Of a stretch of DNA of 36,528 nucleotides, positions 9,588 through 25,330 are shown in pieces. The notes under the pieces were generated by a model. The model made no database searches and was not told the DNA's origin. It saw nothing but the letters and a program-made list of their open reading frames with translations. A program made the position numbers and the translations under genes. Origin of the DNA: Candidatus Bathyarchaeota archaeon (GTDB lineage: Archaea; Thermoproteota; Bathyarchaeia; TCS64; B23); the NCBI GenBank assembly GCA_029259285.1, contig JAPDJB010000052.1, positions 1 through 36,528 of the forward strand, in the 5' to 3' direction. The stretch's first letter is position 1. The number at the start of each line of letters is the position of its first letter.

Positions 9588-12500
9588 TTAAGAGTATCGT
9601 AGAATCCTATTCGAGAATTTATATTCTCCAACCCAGAGGAAGTGGCCGTCGAACCAGACGGCTCCAGGCCAGAAGAGGCCTCTCCTGGTATAGCTTGGTG
9701 GGAGGTCGGGTTCAAAGCTGTCCTGCCCTAACACCACATCCGGCTCCTCATCCCCCCTCTCAGGCAGCTTCTCCCATATCAGCACCCTGAAGACGGTGTC
9801 GGCTACGAAGAGCCTGTGATCATCGATGAAGACGTCTTCGGGGAGGTTGAAGTGGTATTGGAGCTCCATCATCTTGGCTTCCTCATCCATCAGGGAGTCG
9901 ACGTCTATGAGGAGGACTCTGCTTCCGCAGATGGCTGCGAGCCTCTCACCGTTGCTGTGGATGCTTCTGAACTCCTCTTCGAGGGTCAGCGTCTTTACAG
10001 GCTTCGAGTCTGGGGTGAAGGGCTGCCTGAAGATGTAGAGCGCTCCCCCCGCTATGAGATAGGCATAGTTGTCGTCGAGGGCTATGTCTCTCGCCTCGGA
10101 TAGGTCTATTCCGGCTAACTCCCTTGTGATGAGGGTTTCAGGCTTCTCTCCCCTCGTTATGTTTCTCCAGATGGCGAGTCCTCCCCCCTCTCCCCCTCTG
10201 CCGACGACGTATAGCTTATCCCCATATAGGTCTCCACCGGTGGGCTCGAAGGAGAGTTCATAGATGATGTCTGGCTTAGCTCCACTCTCATCCGGCATCC
10301 TCCTCCACACCATCACCCTCCCGTTATATCCAGCGAGGAGGATGAGGCTATGTCCATCGCTGATGGGCTTCCCGCCGTCGGTGAAGTAGTAGGTGTCGGT
10401 GAAGGGGTTCTTCATCACATCATCCGATCCTATGGCGAAGTCCGGCTCCCTATCCTCAGGTCTGCCAAAGTATCCGACAATTCTGCCTCCATTGTAGAGG
10501 GAGATGTAGGTGACCTGTAGGGTTCCATTATCGACGTAGACGGCTCCAGAGCCATCTCCATCCTCGAGGAATAGGTCTCTGAAGAAGGTGGCGCCTCTCC
10601 CCTCCAGCTCATAGAGGTCGAGGTCCCCCCTCAGGGATTTGAAGTTCTCTATGTAGAGGGGCTGGTTGTTGGCTATGGCGAAGAGATCTTCGCCTATGAC
10701 CTCCGAGCACCATAGGACCTTTCCTCCGATGTAGGCGTCGTAGGGTTCATCCCCCCTCTCGGGTATGCCCAGCCATAGGAAGTTTCCACCCCTCAGAGCC
10801 ATCTTTGCGTTGTGATCCCCTATTAGGAGGTAGGTCTCCCCGTCGCTCTCTATGTTCCTCGGAGTCCCGAAGTCATCGACGGAGAGGATGAGGTCTGGGG
10901 GCTGATTATTCTCCGTGGGGAAGCTGTTCCAGATGAGGATGCTTCTACCCATGGTGCTCGCCACTATCAATCGCTTACCATCGGTCCAGACGTCCCATGG
11001 CCAGGCGATGGAGCCGGCCCTCCACTCATCGAAGCTGTCCTGCCCCAGAACCATATCGGCTGGCGTCCCGTTTCGCTCTGGGAACCGATTCCAGATGAGA
11101 ACCCTGTTATTGTAGGTGTCGGCGACGATGATGTGCTCCCCATCGGTGGCGACGCTGACGGGCCACCTCAACCTACTCATCGAGGTTCCAGGGGCGTTGG
11201 CCTCGAAGTTTGGCTGACCCAATACGACGTCTGGAGGCTCGTTCCCCGTCGGTAGATGATTCCAGATGAGTATTCGGTTGTTCCTCGTATCAGCCAGGAG
11301 TAGATGCCTACCATCGCTCGCTATATCCATGGGATGATTGAAGCAGAGGGGGCCTCCGGAGTAGTTGAAGTTGAACCAGCTTAGGACTATGTCAGCCTCC
11401 TGACCGGTCTCGAAGACTCCGTCTCCAAGTCTCTCAGCCGCCTTATACTTTGAGCCTGTGAAGATGATGTTGACTCTCCCCTCTCCCTTCGGCGGCTTCT
11501 CCTCCTCTAAGGGCTTCTCAGATTCCTCGATGGGAGGCGGTGGGAGGTCTGAGATGTATATGAGGCCCTCGACATGCTTCCCCTTCAACTCTATGGGTTT
11601 GCCCTCCACGTCGAAGATGTTCATCTCCCCGATTCTCTCCAGAGCCTCATCGGGGATGGCGGCGTCTTTCACAACGTAGGTGACGCCATACTTCCCAGTG
11701 AATTTGAGACATCCCTCATCCATCCTCTCAACCTCATCATAGTAGCTGAGGGTGTGTATCAGCGTCTTCAGGGCGTTGTATCCCTCACCCTCCATCGCCT
11801 CCTCTCCTGGGCAGAGTATGATCCTCTCCGCACCCGATCCCAGGGCCTCGACGATGCCCCAGACGGCGCTCTCAGCCTCAACGTAGTGGGTGCCGAGGGT
11901 CTCCAGCATGAACTCGGTCTCCGTTATCCATATCGGCTTTTCGACGCCGTGGGATGATAGGAACCTCTTGAACTCTTCGAGGTTGTAGAGCCAGTGTATG
12001 TTGGCTATGTCGAAGTATTCTGCGCCTCCGAGTTCGAAGACCTTTGAATAAAACTCCTTACACTCTTTGCCTATCGTCATGTCGGCGATGCCTGCGTTGA
12101 GTATCTTCGCCTCTGGATCAGCCTCCCTTATCGCCTCTGCGGTGACTCTAAGTATCTCGAAGTATTCCTCAGCCGTCCCGTCGAAGAATCCGAAGACCTC
12201 CCCATGCTCTCCCCAGGGCCTTGGAACAACCTCATTCATCACCTCCCAATACTTCACCGGCTGAGTCAGCCCAGGCATGTCATCTACGCCGTCTCCGTCG
12301 TAACGCTCTACGAGGGCCTTGACGAACTCCCTGTAGGCTTCGAGGTTGTGTGGAGCCTTCTCCCCGTATTTCCCATATCCCTCAACCTGATCCCACTCTG
12401 CGTAGGGGAAGATCATTCCAATCGGTATCCTGCCATTCTCACCGCACCATCTCACCCAGCCGTCGGGTTCACTCCAGTCGTATTCCCCCCTCTCCCTCTC

Positions 12501-15278
12501 GACGACGCCCCATCTGAAGGGGGTGTCCCCAGGCCCTGCAGGCCTATCCCAGACGGCTCCCAGCTCCAGCGTCCTTGGATCCTTCATCAGGTATTGCTGT
12601 AGGATTCCGAATCGTGAGTTCTCAAGCCTATAACCCTCCAACGGCTTCAGGGGCGCTCCAACTTTACCCTCCTCTTCCTTGGGCTTCCCCTCCTTCTTCT
12701 CCCCTGGAGGTGGTAGGGCTATCCCCGCCGGAGCCTTCTTAACCCTCTCAGCTATACGGCTGCTCACAGTGATGTAGATGGGCTCTTCTGAGACCTCAAC
12801 CTCGGAGGTGTCCCTCTCCTCCACCTCGCCGTATATGTGGATGACGTAGATGGTGCCTGAGAGCTCCTCTGGTAGGGTTGCAGGGCTCCAGACGACGTAG
12901 ATAGTCTCTCCGCCTACGTCGAATCTGTATAGGCCCTCGCTAAGCCTCTCGACGGAGTTGAAGTCTCCGAGGATGTAGGCCATCACGACGCCTGGGTCGT
13001 GGTCGAAGAAGAGAACCTCAGCCCCCTCGGCGAAGGCCCTTATGGCCGCCTTGACGAAGGCTATGTCATCTTCCCTCGTCATATCAGGCTTCGGGCCGAC
13101 CTCCGTCACCCAGATGGGCTTCTCAAGGCCATACTCCTTTAGGAGGGCCTTCAACTCGCCGACGTTGAAGTCATCCATCTCGTCGCCGTAGCTGTGGACC
13201 GCTGCGATGTCGAAGTATTCTCCGCCTCCAAGCTCCAAGACCTCCCTCAGGAACTCCTCGGCCCCCTTCCCCTGGAGGGTTGCGAGGCCTCCGATGATGA
13301 CCACAGCCTCTGGATCAGCTTCCTTTACAGCCTCATAGGTGGCCTTTAGAAGCTCATAGTAGTCTGAGCCGCCTCCCTGGAAGAAGCATTTAATCCTACC
13401 ATCCTCCTCAACCGACTGAGACTCAGGCTCATTTAGGACTTCCCAATACTTGATGGGCCTCTCCAATCCAGGCATATCATCTATGCCGTCTCCATCATAT
13501 CGCTCAACGAGGCCTCTGACAAACGCCTTATAGGCCTCCATGTCATGGGGCTTGAACCTCGTTGAGGGGAGGACCTCTGCGAAGGGGCCGTCGCCTGTAG
13601 CCATTCCATATCCCTCCACCCCCTTATAGGCCTCCTCATCCCACTCGGCGTAGGGCCAGATGGTGGCCACCACCTCGGCCCCCTTCTCCAAAGCCCTCCG
13701 CACCCCCTCGTCGACGGTGGAGAAGTCATATTCACCTCGCCTTGGTTCGATGAAGAGGCGGTTGAAGGGGCCTGGATGCGGCTTCATCCAGCCGTATCCG
13801 ACGACGTAGGCATACTCGTCATGCTTATGCCCCCAGCAGCCGAAGTGGATGGCCCAGGCCCCCTCAACCCCCTTCTCCGCAGCCCCTGCGGCGACCTTTC
13901 CAGCTGGGGCGATCTCCCCCAGCCTCGACTGGAGCTCTTCCAGCTCCTCGGGGCTTCCCACGACGAGGTAGTATGGCCCCTCCTCTGGGCGGAGCTCCTC
14001 CACCCTCACCATCTCGGCTTCTCCAAGCATGGTGACCTTCAAGGCCTCGCCGCTCAGGGTCTTGGGGGCCTCACCCCAGAGGAGGTAGATGGTGAGGTCC
14101 CCAGCTCTGAACCTATAGGTTTGGGGGTCGAGTCTCTCGGCTTCGTCGAAGTTTCCCAGGAGTATCACCATCGTCTTCACGGCGTAGTAGGAGGGCTTGA
14201 GGCTTCCATCGAAGTCTATGAGGCTCCCCACGATCAGGTCTTCAGGCATTCCTGGCTCAGCCTTATAGGCTGTGAGGAAGATCCTCTCAACCCCCTCGGC
14301 GAAGACCTTAGCGGCCTCCACGTAGAGCTCCGCCTTCTCGGCTGAGAATTCGGTGACCCAGATGGGTTTACCTTTTATGTATTCGCCGAAGCTCTCCCTG
14401 AGGAGGGGTATGGACTCGGCGAGCATCTTTGAGAGGGCGTGGAAGTTGAGGATGTCGATATACTCGGCTCCACCGAGTTCGAAGACTCTCCCCCAGAACT
14501 TGTAGAAGGGGTCATCAGGGGGTGGGAGGGGGATCATCCCCCCATTTAGAACCTTAGCCTCCGGATCGGCCTCCTTAACGGCCTCATAGGTGGCCTTGAG
14601 AATTTCGAAGTAATCTTCGGCGTCGCCCATGAAGAAGGCCTTCGCCTTATCACGCATCTTCGCCTTGACGCCCGTCGAGGGCTCGTTTAGGACTTCCCAA
14701 TACTTGATGGGCCTCTCCAATCCAGGCATATCGTCGACTCCATCTCCATCATAGCGCTCGACGAGAGTCCTGATGAATCTCTTGTAGGCTTCCATGTCAT
14801 AGGGCTTATAGCGGCTTCTCGGGAGCTCTGGGAAATCCTCCATGACGAATCTCTCTACGTCTCCCCATCTCTCCTGATCCCAGTTGGCATAGGGCCAGAT
14901 GGTGGCGAGGATGTTGAGATCCATTTCCTGAGCCCTCTTCACCACCTCATCGGCCTCTGAGAAGTCGTATCTCCCCTCTTCAGGCTCGATGTGGCCCCAG
15001 ATGAAGGGGCCTGGATGGGGGCGAACCCATCCAAGATTTAGGTCTTCGAGGGCCTCCTCGTCGAAGCAGACGAAGCCGAATCTATCTCCTCCAATCCCCT
15101 TAGGCTTCTCCTCGACGATGGGCTTCTCCCCCGCCTTGCTTGGCTTCTCCGCGGGCTTCTCCTCTATCTCCCCTGTTGGAGGCCTGATGATATTTTTCGT
15201 GTAGAGGATGAGCAGGGTGGAGGCGATGAGAACTGCGATGAGGATGAGGACGGCGACCCTATGGATGGCGCCTCTCAT
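9588..15278 (-). CDS. 1896-aa anchored extracellular protein: three tandem glycoside-hydrolase-like (TIM-barrel) modules plus C-terminal NHL-type beta-propeller
   Basis: Signal anchor (VAVLILIAVLIASTLLILYT), three copies of ...ERYDGDGxDDMPGLxxPxKYWEVxNE... with later PIWxTE, P/E/K-rich linkers, then NHL-like repeats (DGEHIIVADTYNNRVLIWNRFPERNGTPADMVLGQDSF). Confidence 0.85.
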   Translation of the reverse strand: MRGAIHRVAVLILIAVLIASTLLILYTKNIIRPPTGEIEEKPAEKPSKAGEKPIVEEKPKGIGGDRFGFVCFDEEALEDLNLGWVRPHPGPFIWGHIEPEEGRYDFSEADEVVKRAQEMDLNILATIWPYANWDQERWGDVERFVMEDFPELPRSRYKPYDMEAYKRFIRTLVERYDGDGVDDMPGLERPIKYWEVLNEPSTGVKAKMRDKAKAFFMGDAEDYFEILKATYEAVKEADPEAKVLNGGMIPLPPPDDPFYKFWGRVFELGGAEYIDILNFHALSKMLAESIPLLRESFGEYIKGKPIWVTEFSAEKAELYVEAAKVFAEGVERIFLTAYKAEPGMPEDLIVGSLIDFDGSLKPSYYAVKTMVILLGNFDEAERLDPQTYRFRAGDLTIYLLWGEAPKTLSGEALKVTMLGEAEMVRVEELRPEEGPYYLVVGSPEELEELQSRLGEIAPAGKVAAGAAEKGVEGAWAIHFGCWGHKHDEYAYVVGYGWMKPHPGPFNRLFIEPRRGEYDFSTVDEGVRRALEKGAEVVATIWPYAEWDEEAYKGVEGYGMATGDGPFAEVLPSTRFKPHDMEAYKAFVRGLVERYDGDGIDDMPGLERPIKYWEVLNEPESQSVEEDGRIKCFFQGGGSDYYELLKATYEAVKEADPEAVVIIGGLATLQGKGAEEFLREVLELGGGEYFDIAAVHSYGDEMDDFNVGELKALLKEYGLEKPIWVTEVGPKPDMTREDDIAFVKAAIRAFAEGAEVLFFDHDPGVVMAYILGDFNSVERLSEGLYRFDVGGETIYVVWSPATLPEELSGTIYVIHIYGEVEERDTSEVEVSEEPIYITVSSRIAERVKKAPAGIALPPPGEKKEGKPKEEEGKVGAPLKPLEGYRLENSRFGILQQYLMKDPRTLELGAVWDRPAGPGDTPFRWGVVERERGEYDWSEPDGWVRWCGENGRIPIGMIFPYAEWDQVEGYGKYGEKAPHNLEAYREFVKALVERYDGDGVDDMPGLTQPVKYWEVMNEVVPRPWGEHGEVFGFFDGTAEEYFEILRVTAEAIREADPEAKILNAGIADMTIGKECKEFYSKVFELGGAEYFDIANIHWLYNLEEFKRFLSSHGVEKPIWITETEFMLETLGTHYVEAESAVWGIVEALGSGAERIILCPGEEAMEGEGYNALKTLIHTLSYYDEVERMDEGCLKFTGKYGVTYVVKDAAIPDEALERIGEMNIFDVEGKPIELKGKHVEGLIYISDLPPPPIEESEKPLEEEKPPKGEGRVNIIFTGSKYKAAERLGDGVFETGQEADIVLSWFNFNYSGGPLCFNHPMDIASDGRHLLLADTRNNRILIWNHLPTGNEPPDVVLGQPNFEANAPGTSMSRLRWPVSVATDGEHIIVADTYNNRVLIWNRFPERNGTPADMVLGQDSFDEWRAGSIAWPWDVWTDGKRLIVASTMGRSILIWNSFPTENNQPPDLILSVDDFGTPRNIESDGETYLLIGDHNAKMALRGGNFLWLGIPERGDEPYDAYIGGKVLWCSEVIGEDLFAIANNQPLYIENFKSLRGDLDLYELEGRGATFFRDLFLEDGDGSGAVYVDNGTLQVTYISLYNGGRIVGYFGRPEDREPDFAIGSDDVMKNPFTDTYYFTDGGKPISDGHSLILLAGYNGRVMVWRRMPDESGAKPDIIYELSFEPTGGDLYGDKLYVVGRGGEGGGLAIWRNITRGEKPETLITRELAGIDLSEARDIALDDNYAYLIAGGALYIFRQPFTPDSKPVKTLTLEEEFRSIHSNGERLAAICGSRVLLIDVDSLMDEEAKMMELQYHFNLPEDVFIDDHRLFVADTVFRVLIWEKLPERGDEEPDVVLGQDSFEPDLPPSYTRRGLFWPGAVWFDGHFLWVGEYKFSNRILRYS
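11540..15090 (-). repeat. Three-fold tandem duplication of a GH-like module within the giant ORF (approximate modules 15090-13900, 13870-12740, 12625-11540)
   Basis: By-eye alignment of WVRPHPGPFIWGHIEPEEGRYDF / WMKPHPGPFNRLFIEPRRGEYDF / WDRPAGPGDTPFRWGVVERERGEYDW and the downstream KYWEV.NE and PIW.TE blocks; modules 1 and 2 also share tttaggacttcccaatacttgatgggcctctccaatccaggcatatc at DNA level (near 13432 and near 14686). Confidence 0.85.
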
Positions 15279-17983: not shown

Positions 17984-18403
17984 TTACTTCATCTCCCTTA
18001 TGAACTCCTCATAGACCCTTCTAACCCTCTCGGCGGCTGGCCCAGTTCCCTCGACTACCCCCGTCTCGTCAACCCTGATCTTATCCATGACGACGATGAC
18101 TCCAGCCTCTGGGAAGAGCCTCACCATGTTTGGAAACACTCTCTCCAGACGCTCGGCTAAGGCCTCAAGGTTGAAGGGGCGCTCCGAGGCGAGTATCCTT
18201 GAGATGGTTGGGCCGTAGATGAAGACCCTGTGGAGGCTCTCCCCCCGCTCACCCTTCACGTCTCCTAGGCAGAGGCTGAGGGTGTTGGTGTCGAAGCCCA
18301 GCAGTTTCCCCTCCAAAACTCTTCCCTTAACATCCTCAACCTGCACAACCCTATTGATGAGGTGTCCCAGCTCCTCGAAGAACCTCCTGCTCGCCACCGC
18401 CAT
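17984..18403 (-). CDS. Archaeal Sm/Lsm-like protein with C-terminal extension
   Basis: LINRVVQVEDVKGRVLEGKLLGFDTNTLSLCLGDVKGERGESLHRVFIYGPTISRILASE (Sm1/Sm2-like) plus alpha/beta extension. Confidence 0.8.
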   Translation of the reverse strand: MAVASRRFFEELGHLINRVVQVEDVKGRVLEGKLLGFDTNTLSLCLGDVKGERGESLHRVFIYGPTISRILASERPFNLEALAERLERVFPNMVRLFPEAGVIVVMDKIRVDETGVVEGTGPAAERVRRVYEEFIREMK

Positions 18404-18450
18404 CTTCGATCCCAGATGAGATTTAGAGGCGAGCTATAAAAAGGGGTTCT

Positions 18451-18684
18451 TTAAATGCTCTCCAATAGGCTCTTAGCCGTCTCAGTGGTGTAGTATTTAC
18501 CGTCGGCGAAGGCTAGCGCCTTCACCAGTTTCAAGTCCCTCAATACGTCGAAGAGGCGTTCCTGCTTAACCCCCGCCTTCCTTAGTTCTCTCCAATCCCT
18601 CGGCTCACAGCAGAAGGATAGTAGCTTTCTGTAATCCTCGTTTTCGAGATATCTTCTCAGCTGGGCGAGTTCCTCTTCATTCAT
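18451..18684 (-). CDS. Small conserved-looking protein, possible winged-helix fold
   Basis: 77-aa ORF in a co-directional cluster; KLLSFCCEPRDWRELRKAGVKQERLFDVLRDLKLVKALAFADGKYYTTETAKSLLESI resembles a wHTH. Confidence 0.6.
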   Translation of the reverse strand: MNEEELAQLRRYLENEDYRKLLSFCCEPRDWRELRKAGVKQERLFDVLRDLKLVKALAFADGKYYTTETAKSLLESI

Positions 18685-18702
18685 GTTTTGACACTGAAAC
18701 CT

Positions 18703-18927
18703 TCAGTTTATCTTATGTCTCTTATATTTATTTCGATCTTTACCCCCCTCTCTCCTCTTAAGCTCCTGTATGATGGTGACGGCATCTCTAGGCGTATATG
18801 CCCTCGCTAATGGTATAAGCGCCGTAATTTTCATTCTTTTTCCACAATGGGGACATGTTCTGGTCTTGTACCTCGTGTTGGCTAATAATAGCCCGCCACA
18901 TTTTGGACATCTAACGATGAGATACAT
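18703..18927 (-). CDS. DUF1922-type zinc-ribbon protein
   Basis: RCPKCGGLLLANTRYKTRTCPHCGKRMKI followed by RAYTPRDAVTIIQELK. Confidence 0.82.
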   Translation of the reverse strand: MYLIVRCPKCGGLLLANTRYKTRTCPHCGKRMKITALIPLARAYTPRDAVTIIQELKRREGGKDRNKYKRHKIN

Positions 18928-19555
18928 CCTTCAGCCACTCCAATAATTGTTTTGCCTCAGGTCTATCAAGCCAGTCGACGACTCCAATTCGTGGAGGGCG
19001 CACCCCCCTTAAAACCTCATAGATCTCCTCCACGATCTCCTGTGGAGTCTTATCAGTTGTGTCCACTTCATGGATCCTCTCAGATCCATGGATCTCTATA
19101 GCCTCCGATAGGCAGACGTCTAGGAGTTCAGCCTCCACATTCTCCCTCACCTTCCCCGCATCGTATCCCCTCTCCTCCAGCTCATCCCTAAGTCTCCAGG
19201 GCGCCCTCCTGAGGACGAAGATCCAGGAACCCTTAGGGGCTATGTCGTGGGCGTAGTGGCCCTCGATGATCAGCCTCCCATATCTACTCAGAAGTCTCTC
19301 CACCCTCCTCTTCACGGCCTCGATATCCACGATGGCCGTGTCACGTTCCCCATTCCACTCCTCCATCAATCCCTCCTCGAGGGCCAGCCTGGAGAGATCG
19401 AGGTGGCGAGCTTCAAGCCTCTCGGCCAGAAGACGGCTGATGGTCGTCTTCCCCACACCTGGCGAGCCGGTGATGGCTATGATCAGCTTCCCCTTCCTCT
19501 CCACATAATCACTAGAGATCGGGGATTTAGGAGACCCAAACATTAATCCCTCCAT
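18911..19555 (-). CDS. Adenylate kinase AK6 (Fap7/hCINAP)-like P-loop kinase
   Basis: IAITGSPGVGKTTISRLLAERL; LIIEGHYAHDIAPKGSWIFVLRRAPWRLRDELEERGYDAGKVRENVEAELLDVC. Confidence 0.88.
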   Translation of the reverse strand: MEGLMFGSPKSPISSDYVERKGKLIIAITGSPGVGKTTISRLLAERLEARHLDLSRLALEEGLMEEWNGERDTAIVDIEAVKRRVERLLSRYGRLIIEGHYAHDIAPKGSWIFVLRRAPWRLRDELEERGYDAGKVRENVEAELLDVCLSEAIEIHGSERIHEVDTTDKTPQEIVEEIYEVLRGVRPPRIGVVDWLDRPEAKQLLEWLKDVSHR

Positions 19556-19637: not shown

Positions 19638-19914
19638 TATTCCTCACCCATGAAGCTCCTACTTATAGCCGCCGCGGGATGTACGGCCATAGATGTCTCC
19701 CGTCTATTAGGTTGGATGAAGCAGAGCGTTGAGGGGTTGGAGGTGGAGATCGAGGTGAGGGGAGGAATCATCCTCGGATCTATAGGCGCATGGAGATCGT
19801 CTATAGGGTTAGAGGGACGTAGACCCTGATCGGGTTAGGAGGGCGGTGGAGCTTAGCCTTGAGAAGTATCGTGGCACCTCGATGACTCAGAGCTGGTGCG
19901 GAGGTAGATTATAG
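19638..19914 (+). pseudogene. Degraded OsmC/Ohr-family protein remnant with frame disruptions
   Basis: Frame a: SPMKLLLIAAAGCTAIDVSRLLGWMKQSVEGLEVEIEVRGG (cf. OsmC SPxELLLAALxGCTAID). Another frame: MEIVYRVRGT. A third: RDVDPDRVRRAVELSLEKYRGTSMTQSWCGGRL*, matching the OsmC C-terminal half. No single ORF spans it. Confidence 0.75.
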
Positions 19915-19935
19915 AATCAAGGTGGAACCCTAGGG

Positions 19936-20790
19936 TTAGGGTGTGATGTACTCTATCCTTATCTGGAGTTCTCGGGAGACCTCTATTCCATAACGCTCCT
20001 CTAGTGTGGTGATCCCCCGATTCTCTAAGAGACCCCCCACCAATCCAGGTAGATCGCTGGATATTATCGCATAGGTCTCCCTCACCCTCTCCTCAATGGT
20101 TAGCTCTGGGTGGGCCTCAGCTATATGCCTGTAGGTTTGATAGGTCTTGTTCATGACGTAGACCTGAAAGGCATTCTCCAGCAGCTCCCTTATCAAGCTG
20201 TGCCCCCTATGCCTCGGGTATAGCCAGGGGTAACGTTGACTCTCATTCTCCTCGACCCTATAGGCCTGGATGAAGCGGTCTATGTCGACGATTCTATATC
20301 GACCATCGACGATGATGATGGGTATTTCCAATCCCTCATAGGGGTTTTCGCCGCTTAATAGGTCCCTGATATAGTTGTAGAGGCTGAAGGTTTTGAAGCC
20401 GTCCCTCGTCAATAGAGACCAGTATAGGAGTCTCCCCTCCTCATCCGTCGCTAAGGGGAGTATGACGGTGGTTCGCAGCTCATAACTCTGGGTTCCCATT
20501 CTAAACTTATAGTGCGTGTGGAGGGGCTTAGGTAGATGCCAATATAATCTTCCCATGGGCGTGGAGAGGAGGGGCCTATCCTCAAAGCATAGGGTCTTCA
20601 CGCCGCTCTCAGGTAGATCCCCATAGATTAGGAGGATGAGATCATTCAGCCCCTTAATCTTTCTCAGATCATAGGTGAGTATCACCGCCACCTCGCCTCT
20701 ACCGAGGAGTATGAAGCCTGTGAGGGCGTAGACGCCTAGTAGTAGAAGGAGGCCGGCGGCTATTCCCCTAGCCCCCCTCAATCCCTTCAC
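19936..20790 (-). CDS. Single-pass membrane-anchored protein, possibly SPFH/band-7-like
   Basis: N-terminal TM (GIAAGLLLLLGVYALTGFILL) then RGEVAVILTYDL ... LLTRDGFKTFSLYNYI ... EVSRELQIRIEYITP; arrangement recalls SPFH domains, but this is by eye only. Confidence 0.5.
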   Translation of the reverse strand: MKGLRGARGIAAGLLLLLGVYALTGFILLGRGEVAVILTYDLRKIKGLNDLILLIYGDLPESGVKTLCFEDRPLLSTPMGRLYWHLPKPLHTHYKFRMGTQSYELRTTVILPLATDEEGRLLYWSLLTRDGFKTFSLYNYIRDLLSGENPYEGLEIPIIIVDGRYRIVDIDRFIQAYRVEENESQRYPWLYPRHRGHSLIRELLENAFQVYVMNKTYQTYRHIAEAHPELTIEERVRETYAIISSDLPGLVGGLLENRGITTLEERYGIEVSRELQIRIEYITP

Positions 20791-21623
20791 CTCCAGCTCT
20801 TCAGCTCCCTCAGCCAGCGGTTGAGGGCCTTATCCCTCCCCAGTACGCGTCTCTCCCTGCTCAATCTGTAGAAAGAGGTTTTAAGCCTGTGATAATAGTC
20901 GACGAGGGCTTCCAGGCCGTAATAACTAGCCTGCGCCTGCATCTCAGCGAGTCTCCTAATCAGTCTCCTACAGGCCTTAACCCTAGCCTCTATAGCCGGT
21001 GAATGGAGGTCTATGAGGCTTTTTCTCGCCTCCTCCACCAATCCCTGGATACTCTCCCTGAAGTCCTCAAGCTCAGGGCTATCCCTCATCTCAGCCTTCT
21101 GCTCCATAAGTTCCCTAAGCCACTCGGCGATCTCCCCCTCTCTTCCCGCTTCTCGAGCCATGTATTGATGCGTTATGATGAGGGTGAGGATCAGGGGTGA
21201 TAGGCCTAGGATGAAGCCGAGGGCTGTGGCGAAGGGGATGGCGACGGGGTCCAGGACGGTCTCTACAAGCTCACTCGTCAGGAAGAGGTATCTACTTAGA
21301 TGATATGCCAGAGGTATGAAGGCTAACTTGAAGAGGGGTTCGAAGGCGTAGACGCTTACTGCTGCTCCGCAGAATCTAAGGAACCACGCCCAATCCATAC
21401 GTTTACCAGCCCTCTCCCCATATCTCCTCCAAAGTTTCTCCTCGAATCTCCTAAGTATATCATCTCCACCTCTTCTAGGCGTGTATAGGATGCGTCTTAC
21501 GGTTCCCCCGCCCTTATACTCTTCAAAGGCTCTCCATAGTTGATGCCGGCTGTAGCCTATGGTCTCCCCCTCATCTAGGGGGTCTTCTATGAGGTAGTAG
21601 TGGATCTCGCCGCTAGTCTCCAT
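20787..21623 (-). CDS. Membrane protein with central TM hairpin and C-terminal helical/coiled-coil region, unknown function
   Basis: ORF overlaps both neighbours by a few bases; hydrophobic segments around FCGAAVSVYAFEPLFKLAFIPLAYHL and PFATALGFILGLSPLILTLIITH. Confidence 0.65.
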   Translation of the reverse strand: METSGEIHYYLIEDPLDEGETIGYSRHQLWRAFEEYKGGGTVRRILYTPRRGGDDILRRFEEKLWRRYGERAGKRMDWAWFLRFCGAAVSVYAFEPLFKLAFIPLAYHLSRYLFLTSELVETVLDPVAIPFATALGFILGLSPLILTLIITHQYMAREAGREGEIAEWLRELMEQKAEMRDSPELEDFRESIQGLVEEARKSLIDLHSPAIEARVKACRRLIRRLAEMQAQASYYGLEALVDYYHRLKTSFYRLSRERRVLGRDKALNRWLRELKSWR

Positions 21624-23520
21624 CCTTGATCCCCAGTATTTTTAATATGCCTCCCTCGACGAAGGCGAGGGCTTCCCCAACTCTCTCATCGATTGGGTTT
21701 TGGAAGGTCTCGGTGGTATAGCTAAGTGTTCCAAATCTATGATGGAGCCATGCTGGACACACCCTTATATCGAGCTTGAAGAGTAGCGGCCCATCTATGG
21801 TTCGGCCTACATCGATGGAGATGAGTTGTGGAGGCCAATCCGGCGATGGCTTATCCAGGAGCTTCTGATACTCCCCTCTATAGACCTTAAAGCCCTTCTC
21901 AGCGACGTGCCTCATCATTGCCTCCCCGATCTCGAATTCGGGGATCTCCGCCATCAGGGTTCGGACATACTCTAGGCCCAATAGTCTCCTCAGTATCCTC
22001 CTCTTGGAGAGGTATCTGGCCAGTCTATTCTCGGGGCGTTTCATCATATTCTCCAATCGGTCTCGGATCTCTGGGGGGATGTAGAAGTTCTCTATGGAGA
22101 GGATTCCCGCCCCCTTATAGATGAGGTCAGCCATCTTCCCTATGGTCTCATGGAGGTCGACGGCGAAGGTTGGCCTAAACTCCTCAAGGTACTCCTGGAG
22201 TGCAGTTATCCTGGGCGACTTGACGTTGTCGCCCCAAACCACATTAGGGTCTCTAAATCTGACGGCATATTCCAATAGCTGAGCTGGGTGTAGGCTCCCC
22301 CTATTCAGTAGTCTCAGTGCTAGGAGCTCCGCCTCGCCCTGTAGGCTATAGGGGCCTCCCTGTGGGGGCCAGTGTTCCTCTCTCCCAGCCATGTCGACTC
22401 CCATCCATGCTCTCATGCTGTATCCCTCTGGGTCGTCGACGGGCATGAATGCGATCCGGCTTCTGCTGAGAACCTCTTCGGTGTATCTCCCCTCCTTCTC
22501 AAGGCTTCTCATCATCTGCAGTATCGCCAGCGGCCCTGCGGGCTCCCTCCCATGGCATCCGGCCTTTATGAGGATTCGGGCCTCACCGCCGTCGCCGATC
22601 TCATAGGCGTTTATCTCATACCCCCTCTCCGTCTCATAGACGGTGATCTTCTCAGCCCCTATCCGCTCGGCTGCCAGCTCCAGCTCCCTGTGTAGCTCCC
22701 GATAGGTGGAGAGGCGATATAGGTATTTGGCTCCTATATTGAAGTCGAAGAGTTCCATCTCCTCGTCTTTCATCCTTGAGGGCTTGGTGGCTGCTCTATG
22801 TCGCCGCTTGAAACTCTCGATGCTCCATCCCTCATCGTATAGGGGGAATCCCAGGTGGGGTTCTCGGTATCTCCACTCGGTGATGGGGGCGCTGTAGCAG
22901 TAGAACTCCTTAAGCTCTGGAAGCCCCATCTTGTCGCAGGTGTGGAGGGCTTCTACGTAGGCCTCGGTCTTATCCTTAGCCCTCTCCATGATCTCCTTGA
23001 GCTTCCTCAACCCTGGATGCTCTACGCATTCAATCCTCTCCAAGCCCTTCAGGGTCTTCTCTATCCCACTTTCAACCTCCTCGTAGTAGTCTCTGATCTC
23101 CTTGACGATCCTCTTGACGAGGAGGTGGTTTCCCATGAGGAGGTATAGGCCGATGAGGAGGTCTGCTGCCCCTCCGCTGAGGTATCCCCTGATGAGGCCG
23201 CTGGCAAGGAAGGTTGGGCCGAGGAAGAGTCTCAGCCATAACGGGTCGAGGAGGCTGAGGTAGTAGCTTAGAAGCCTCTTCAAAACCTCGCTTATGAGCT
23301 TCTTATCCCTGTAGAAGGTGTCGAGAAGTCCTTCCTTCACCTGTTTCTCGATGTTCTCAGCCTTCCCATCCGCCGTTAGGAGTTGGATCGTCAATCTCTC
23401 CTTCCTCTCCTCCAGCTCCGTGTACATCCCCTCGGCCTCTAGGAACCAGAAGGGGTGTAGGTCTATGTAGAATAGGTCTGGCTCATCCTTCCTGGGAACC
23501 CTGTAGACTAGCCACTTCAT
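21613..23520 (-). CDS. Membrane-anchored M14-type zinc carboxypeptidase-like protein
   Basis: TM hairpin (LWLRLFLGPTFLASGLI / LLIGLYLLMGNHLL), then M14 signature residues: GCHGREPAGP (HxxE), DDPEGYSMRAW (NPDGY..R-like), FAVDLHETIG (zinc His), TLSYTTETFQNPIDERV (catalytic Glu context). Confidence 0.75.
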   Translation of the reverse strand: MKWLVYRVPRKDEPDLFYIDLHPFWFLEAEGMYTELEERKERLTIQLLTADGKAENIEKQVKEGLLDTFYRDKKLISEVLKRLLSYYLSLLDPLWLRLFLGPTFLASGLIRGYLSGGAADLLIGLYLLMGNHLLVKRIVKEIRDYYEEVESGIEKTLKGLERIECVEHPGLRKLKEIMERAKDKTEAYVEALHTCDKMGLPELKEFYCYSAPITEWRYREPHLGFPLYDEGWSIESFKRRHRAATKPSRMKDEEMELFDFNIGAKYLYRLSTYRELHRELELAAERIGAEKITVYETERGYEINAYEIGDGGEARILIKAGCHGREPAGPLAILQMMRSLEKEGRYTEEVLSRSRIAFMPVDDPEGYSMRAWMGVDMAGREEHWPPQGGPYSLQGEAELLALRLLNRGSLHPAQLLEYAVRFRDPNVVWGDNVKSPRITALQEYLEEFRPTFAVDLHETIGKMADLIYKGAGILSIENFYIPPEIRDRLENMMKRPENRLARYLSKRRILRRLLGLEYVRTLMAEIPEFEIGEAMMRHVAEKGFKVYRGEYQKLLDKPSPDWPPQLISIDVGRTIDGPLLFKLDIRVCPAWLHHRFGTLSYTTETFQNPIDERVGEALAFVEGGILKILGIKDGD

Positions 23521-24308
23521 GCTCCCACATCCATATTCCTCATGGGAGCCGTTATCCTGGGCACCTCAACCTTGAAGCCTAGATAGTAGAGCTTGATCCT
23601 CCTCCATAGGCTGGCTGGATTATACTTGGTGTAGAAGCTCTCCTCTTCTCGTAGCTCCCTGATCAGCCAGTCGTAGAACCTCACGGCGGCTTGGAATCCC
23701 AGGTTTCTCGCGTAGTCCCTCAACCTCCCGTATAGGTTGATCTCCCCTCCATCGATCTCCGAGAAACGTTCCCGCATCATCTCCACGAGTCTTAACTTGC
23801 CCTTGTCCTCCCCCTCAACCACCTCGCATCCCTTAAGCCTCTTGATGGCTCTGTGAACTCCCCGCTCTATGGAGCCGTCTAGCAGCCATCGATATAGGGG
23901 CCTGAAGCAGTGGCCGAAGATTAGGATGTGGAAGAAGAATACGTCGACGCAGACGGCGTAGATATTGTAGGGGTAGGGTAGGAAGAGATATGAGGAGATC
24001 GCCACGAAGGTGGCGATGGAGTAGGCGATAATCCCCATCAACCTCCAGTATCGATATATCCTCCTATTCTTCTCCACATCTGCGAAGTATCTTGAGAAGG
24101 CGTTGTCGAAGGCTCTGGCGATCCTCTCCAACTCTCCTCGACTTAACCTCTCTGGAGAGTAACAATGTATTCTAACTTTATGTTCCACCCCTCCACATCT
24201 CATTATATGTTTATCTATTTCTAAGTCAACATAAGCAGTATAATTTAATCCACCACTAATTCTGCCCAATGTTGGTAGAACATAGGCGTCGACATCGATT
24301 ATCTTCAT
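23517..24308 (-). CDS. Membrane protein, apparent paralogue of the non-catalytic half of the adjacent M14 protein
   Basis: Two TM segments; GVHRAIKRLKGCEVVEGEDKGKLRLVEMMRERF resembles GIEKTLKGLERIECVEHPGLRKLKEIMERA of the neighbouring ORF at the same position after the TM hairpin. Confidence 0.6.
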   Translation of the reverse strand: MKIIDVDAYVLPTLGRISGGLNYTAYVDLEIDKHIMRCGGVEHKVRIHCYSPERLSRGELERIARAFDNAFSRYFADVEKNRRIYRYWRLMGIIAYSIATFVAISSYLFLPYPYNIYAVCVDVFFFHILIFGHCFRPLYRWLLDGSIERGVHRAIKRLKGCEVVEGEDKGKLRLVEMMRERFSEIDGGEINLYGRLRDYARNLGFQAAVRFYDWLIRELREEESFYTKYNPASLWRRIKLYYLGFKVEVPRITAPMRNMDVGA

Positions 24309-24362
24309 TTCCTAATCTCTATTGATTTCACTCGATATTTATCTTTTTAGAGCTAGTTGTCT
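24309..24362. promoter_or_regulatory. Compact divergent promoter between the M14 operon and mntP-like gene
   Basis: 54-bp gap containing gatatttatc (24334..24343), TATA-like in both directions, about 24 nt from the ATG at 24363 and about 30 nt from the start of the minus-strand gene. Confidence 0.5.
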
Positions 24363-24968
24363 ATGATGATAAAAGATGCCATAAGGCTTAATTCCCACCT
24401 AATAGAAATTCATCAGACCATGCTAGACCCCATCGCCGTCTTCCTCCTCGCCGTGGGCCTGGCGATGGACTCCATCTCTGTGGCCATAGCCGTGGGGTTG
24501 AAGCTGGGTGATAGGCTGCTCCAGGCCTCGAGGCTCTCGATGGCCTTCGGCTTATCCCATATCGCCATGCCGATGCTGGGCTGGTGGCTTGGCCTATCCA
24601 TCATAGACCTCATCTCAGCCTATGATCATTGGGTGGCTTTCCTACTGTTAACCCTCATAGGGTTGACGATGATCCTCAGGGAGGAGCAGATGGAGCCGCA
24701 GCTTTTAGGCCTCTTAAACCTCTTAGCCCTATCCATCGCGACGAGTATAGACGCCATAGCGGCGGGCATCACCCTATATCTGGAACAGGTTCCGATCATC
24801 CCCTCAACCCTCCTAATAGGGGTGGTGGTGGCCCTCCTCACCTTTACCGCGGCCCTCGCAAGTGGAAGGATCAGTCGGGGTCTGGGGAGGTGGACTAGGA
24901 TCGTCGGCGGCTTCATCTTAATCTCCGTTGGTTTGAGGATACTTATGATTCATATTTTAACTTCATGA
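24357..24968 (+). CDS. MntP-like (DUF204) manganese efflux pump
   Basis: LAVGLAMDSISVAIAVGLKLG and LALSIATSIDAIAAGITLYLE duplicated motifs; six TM segments. The real start may be ATG 24363 or ATG 24421. Confidence 0.85.
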   Translation: MSMMIKDAIRLNSHLIEIHQTMLDPIAVFLLAVGLAMDSISVAIAVGLKLGDRLLQASRLSMAFGLSHIAMPMLGWWLGLSIIDLISAYDHWVAFLLLTLIGLTMILREEQMEPQLLGLLNLLALSIATSIDAIAAGITLYLEQVPIIPSTLLIGVVVALLTFTAALASGRISRGLGRWTRIVGGFILISVGLRILMIHILTS

Positions 24969-25054: not shown

Positions 25055-25330
25055 ATGTCCAAGAGGAGATCCATGCTTGACATAGTGTTAGATGTCCTCT
25101 CCGTGGTTAGGGATGGGGTTGATAAGCCGACTAGGATTATGTATGCCGCAAACCTCTCTTGGAGGCCGACGCAGAGGATTCTAAAGATGATGGTTGAGAG
25201 AGGTCTCCTCAAGGTGGTTGAGACGGAGGGGGATGGGAGGACTAAGAGGAGATACCTCATCACCGAGAGAGGGCTCAACGTATTGGAATACTTCGAGAGG
25301 GCTAAGGAGCTCCTGGATCTCCCAGTTTAG
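25055..25330 (+). CDS. Archaeal winged-helix transcriptional regulator
   Basis: SMLDIVLDVLSVVRDGVDKPTRIMYAANLSWRPTQRILKMMVERGLLKVVETEGDGRTKRRYLITERGLNVLEYFERAKELL, typical archaeal wHTH. Confidence 0.85.
   Translation: MSKRRSMLDIVLDVLSVVRDGVDKPTRIMYAANLSWRPTQRILKMMVERGLLKVVETEGDGRTKRRYLITERGLNVLEYFERAKELLDLPV

Follow-up and report, generated by a model that had tools for sequence, protein, structure and literature searches.

A four-gene operon of predicted membrane proteins around a putative M14-type zinc hydrolase, found in one genus of Bathyarchaeia

Four overlapping genes on the minus strand

The window analyzed here (the whole stretch of DNA, 36,528 nucleotides) corresponds to contig C2 in assembly G000, which is 1.30 Mb long and 86% complete. 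It contains four minus-strand open reading frames, genes A, B, C and D, in which neighbors overlap by 4, 11 and 4 bp (Table 1). Open reading frame calling reproduced the four genes, coordinates, strand and overlaps that had been given in an initial annotation of this DNA. By eye, SD-like purine runs lie ahead of the starts of B (GGGAG) and D (GGAGGTG). The C/D junction is kept in relatives, where a longer start is possible. These data support a genuine operon, in which genes for predicted membrane proteins surround one with a membrane-anchored M14-type domain.

Table 1. Features of the operon, in window coordinates
Feature	Position	Strand	Description
Gene A	23517..24308	-	263 aa; orphan family with a TM hairpin
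Predicted TM hairpin of A	23907..24035	-	Residues 92-134, hydropathy
A/B overlap	23517..23520	-	4 bp, ATGA, GGGAG ahead; identical overlap in G003 and G002
Gene B	21613..23520	-	635 aa; N-terminal membrane module (1-255) and M14 domain (about 256-635)
Predicted TM region of B	23104..23238	-	Residues about 95-139; one clear segment, first segment marginal
Pfam Peptidase_M14 match in B	22411..22650	-	Residues 291-370
HxxE zinc motif in B	22543..22554	-	HGRE (H323, E326); inside Pfam match, invariant in genus
DLHE motif in B	22147..22158	-	Probable third zinc ligand H457; weak alignment with DVHES of nearest M14 relative
TTETF motif in B	21703..21717	-	Probable catalytic Glu E604; invariant; assigned by motif only, region unaligned by any profile
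B/C overlap	21613..21623	-	11 bp
Gene C	20787..21623	-	278 aa; orphan family with a TM hairpin and a helical C-terminal part
Predicted TM region of C	21168..21374	-	Residues about 84-152; hairpin, hydropathy
C/D overlap	20787..20790	-	4 bp, GTGA, GGAG ahead
Gene D	19936..20790	-	284 aa; orphan family with an N-terminal TM and a mixed alpha/beta body
Predicted N-terminal TM of D	20704..20766	-	Residues 9-29, hydropathy

Conservation and selection within the genus

All four genomes of the genus (G000 and three others, G001-G003) keep the gene order and the overlaps as far as the contigs reach. G003 has the complete operon with all three overlaps. G002 has B, C, D and the tail of A and keeps the A/B overlap (as read from the A tail) along with those of B/C and C/D, and G001 has the end of B followed by C and D, with the B/C and C/D overlaps kept. 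A peptide-pattern scan, which reveals close relatives, gave named matches in Candidatus Bathyarchaeota B23, AUK253 and SRR6823441_bin.104. Co-occurrence beyond this genome, which the initial annotation had proposed as a test, thus extends to four genomes within one genus only.

Counts of synonymous and non-synonymous change between orthologues gave dN/dS values of 0.09-0.28 over all four genes: 0.09 for A against G003, and 0.13, 0.19 and 0.16 for B, C and D against G002. Between G000 and G002, the M14 half of B has a dN/dS of 0.07 with 88% identity, and the N-terminal half has 0.27 with 74% identity. These low values indicate that purifying selection acts on A-D, which are constrained coding genes, and that the catalytic half of B is the most constrained of all.

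Membrane topology and the orphan genes A and C

TM segments were called by simple hydropathy rather than by a trained predictor. The annotation's statement that all four products carry TM segments stood for the hairpins of A and C and for the N-terminal segment of D, and stood in part for B, in which the predicted hairpin consists of one clear and one marginal segment. In A, positively charged residues lie outside the hairpin, with zero in its loop. Positive-inside counts predict a cytoplasmic location for the soluble regions of A, B and C; the counts for D are ambiguous. A weak match of the B TM region to a coiled coil proved to be chance.

A, C and D each stand as an orphan family. No Pfam or NCBIfam family matches A, which is full-length in G000 and G003, with its C-terminal end present at a contig edge in G002. 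Weak matches of A to glutamate dehydrogenase and of C to ABC permeases proved to be chance.

A, the N-terminal half of B, and C have a common layout and length, with an N-terminal domain, a TM hairpin and a helical tail. Between A and B, a collinear alignment of the tails reaches z 3.2 (5/500 shuffles), and the global alignment of A with C scores above segment-wise shuffles (z 2.65, 3/400). The similarity of B to C was weak in a shuffle test, and profile comparison of the three was not significant. Because several pairs were tested, we treat the similarity as a lead only; its weak signal suggests that the three regions are perhaps of shared ancestry. A bolder possibility is that one genus duplicated a membrane module (now A, the N-terminal half of B, and C), fused an M14 domain to one copy and added a fourth subunit of new fold, creating a new membrane metallohydrolase machine. 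We consider this unlikely.

The M14 domain of gene B

B scores above the cut-off for Pfam M14 (PF00246; 29.1 bits against 21.6, E 9.5e-7), and the family is matched in all three full-length copies. The match spans just the first third of the M14 profile. The motifs H323xxE326, DLH457E and TTE604TF, noticed when the sequence was first read, are all present and identical in the three full copies (G000, G003 and G002). The order HxxE...H...E, with its last Glu assigned by motif, is the same as in the M14 family, including its AstE/AspA and N-acetyl-ornithine deacetylase side. B differs from the family in its added N-terminal membrane module and in the absence of a recognizable GVDxNRN clamp: the usual Asn-Arg clamp site reads GVDMAGRE. 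Residues 422-424, FRD, may provide a substitute through R423; loss of the clamp was dropped as a reading once this possible substitute was noticed. The interval from the third ligand to the catalytic Glu would be roughly 70 residues longer than in carboxypeptidase A.

Weaker matches of B in the PDB were to carboxypeptidase B (7eqx, E 0.003-0.004) and a Shewanella metallopeptidase (3b2y, E 0.03). The best NCBIfam match was N-acetyl-ornithine deacetylase (E 5e-4, far under the cut-off), and NF052223 and PF24827 were among the weak matches. Together these may point, weakly, to the N-acyl amino-acid deacylase side of M14 as well as to carboxypeptidases. The M14 match and the conserved motifs, taken with an unclear clamp site, support the assignment of B as a putative M14-type zinc hydrolase and leave the narrower term carboxypeptidase not established. 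An AlphaFold2 model of B (pLDDT 33, 3-row alignment) gave no meaningful Foldseek matches; this model and that of D (see below) were unusable because the alignments were too shallow.

B could also be a pseudoenzyme, an M14-fold binder that serves as a sensor or structural subunit. The unrecognizable clamp motif and the confinement of the Pfam match to the first third of the profile would fit such a protein, but the invariance of HxxE, DLHE and TTETF and the slow evolution of the M14 half, the slowest-evolving part of the operon, argue against it, and we judge the pseudoenzyme improbable.

Other M14 proteins of the class are distinct from B. The nearest among the class relatives compared is a 308-aa TM-bearing protein in G046 (phmmer E 4e-8). 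It shares an N-terminal TM with B, but it is half the size, reads HGDE and DLNRD, and has unrelated neighbors. M14 proteins of about 850 aa from sister families share the M14 domain and the taxonomic order with B; the 11 examined are without a strong hydrophobic segment, and their relation to B was not significant (HH probability 0.3%). Other genomes of the order have many M14 proteins, often of about 830-900 aa and with a conserved GHDNNRD, and there are up to 10 M14 matches per genome elsewhere in the order; in the genus of the window, gene B alone was found.

Gene D and SPFH proteins

The initial annotation described D as SPFH-like. To the eye, D resembles such proteins in its N-terminal TM, in a beta-rich stretch, in a segment (IVDGRYRIVDIDRF) reminiscent of the SPFH core, and in its end, which reads GIEVSRELQIRIEYITP. 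Such a protein might be a divergent stomatin- or HflC-like scaffold that clusters the M14 enzyme, as in stomatin-NfeD or HflKC-FtsH, and known SPFH genes often adjoin membrane protease genes (PMC2636767). However, the search results for D ran against this. There was no Band_7 match at E up to 10 in four orthologues, and profile scores were at the level of shuffled sequences. The PDB search returned no SPFH chain. In comparisons with 30 Band_7 proteins from this class, D reached a shuffle z of at most 1.0 (mean -0.4), and HMM and profile-profile scores against Bathyarchaeia Band_7 alignments were no better than those of reversed or shuffled D (HH probability <1%). The same tool detected Band_7 in 55 of 61 genomes, including a normal Band_7 gene on contig C19 of the window genome itself. 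Four close sequences make a weak profile, and so we call an SPFH identity for D unsupported rather than choosing a stronger word. We consider an SPFH-scaffolded peptidase complex unlikely.

The window copy of D matches no Pfam family, and a chance AAA-ATPase-like match appeared at E up to 10 in one of the four orthologues. Several weak matches, among them an ABC transporter ATPase and an FAD-linked oxidase, proved to be chance. The AlphaFold2 model (pLDDT 38, 4-row alignment) had no significant Foldseek matches.

The operon shares with stomatin-NfeD (PH1510/PH1511) and HflKC-FtsH the idea of a membrane protease and small membrane partners in one operon. Those systems use other protease families, and neither an SPFH nor an NfeD protein could be detected among A-D; A and C are without a Pfam match above the cut-off. 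No PADLOC model for anti-phage defense matched at E up to 1. The gene combination had not been recognized at first reading, and we likewise found no characterized complex that matches it.

Distribution and genomic neighborhood

Outside the genus, B was not found among the 257 genomes of the class that were searched or in 300 genomes sampled across the phylum, and D was not found in the same 300. The lone class match to B (G046, E 2e-4) is an ordinary M14 protein. Weak matches aside, C was not found in the other 28 genomes of the order and A was not found in 57 other relatives; those of the weak matches that were inspected were unrelated proteins or had no matching open reading frame. Plasmids and viral contigs yielded no relatives of B, and viral contigs none of C or D; phages gave one 34% match to B, confined to the HxxE region. 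Phyla beyond that of the window were covered solely by the peptide-pattern scan, which finds close relatives.

As a control, the adjacent kinase gene was searched for in 32 genomes of the order and turned up in 28; copies from outside the genus are 39-57% identical. The Lsm-TGT pair beside it is kept in eight order genomes (in G009 an overlapping open reading frame hides the kinase call), and on the operon side of the kinase these eight have different genes, none matching A-D. With the kinase block kept and the flanking genes different, the operon lies at a genus-specific junction with no recognizable positional counterpart. Gain, transposition, and loss elsewhere cannot be told apart as its origin.

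This setting could also be explained if A-D are independent, lineage-specific accessory genes that arrived together where the genome was rearranged and are co-transcribed without forming one machine. In favor of this, the far side of the block that adjoins the operon differs in all eight order genomes examined, no other genome of the class has B, and C and D evolve faster than the catalytic half of B. Against this, three overlaps are conserved, the membrane layout is similar, and no member has been lost within contig limits, which together suggest a joint function. We regard independent genes as rather unlikely.

Proposed function

Tentatively, we favor the reading that A-B-C-D is a genus-specific operon for a membrane-bound M14-type zinc hydrolase and three membrane partners. 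In B, an N-terminal module would anchor the M14-type active site to the membrane. Going by the positive-inside rule, the catalytic domain probably faces the cytoplasm, and B would then most likely work on the cytoplasmic side of the membrane, trimming peptides or taking acyl groups off amino acids or peptides, with peptides or N-acyl amino acids as the most likely substrate class. We suspect that A and C, which may be old duplicates of the N-terminal half of B, pair with that half as non-catalytic membrane subunits, and that D is a single-TM accessory subunit of orphan family. A physical complex of A-D, the adaptor roles that the initial annotation proposed for A and C, and a carboxypeptidase activity of B are all hypothetical, and co-transcription is no proof of a complex.

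Bathyarchaeia and other sediment archaea have been proposed in the literature to feed on peptides and detrital protein (e.g. PMC9534799, PMC9123169). Such a lifestyle fits the operon but does not single it out. If our reading is true, a membrane-anchored M14 branch and three orphan membrane families would be added to a lineage proposed to live on detrital protein. The restriction to one genus makes the reach of this finding modest: it would be lineage-specific variation and no widespread system.

Other genes in the window

The order as a whole keeps the kinase-Lsm-TGT block (17984-19555). On the far side of the kinase, many sister-family genomes have genes in common that are not shared by the genus of the window. 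Between the kinase and D, on the plus strand (19644-19930), are the remains of a gene that we read as OsmC-like. G003 and G002 have whole copies of 129 and 136 aa, respectively, and the G001 copy may carry a frameshift close to its start. In the window the gene is broken up across reading frames into pieces of 37 aa (92% identity) and 57 aa (53% identity), which may reflect a sequencing or assembly error.

The minus strand also encodes a 1896-aa protein (9588-15278; 1891 aa in G003) with an N-terminal TM; by eye, glycosidase-like units recur in it, with NHL-like repeats behind them. Divergent from A is a gene for an MntP-type manganese efflux protein (24357-24968, plus strand), and after it comes a gene for a chromatin protein of the Sso10a family (25055-25330), with an NCBIfam match above the cut-off.
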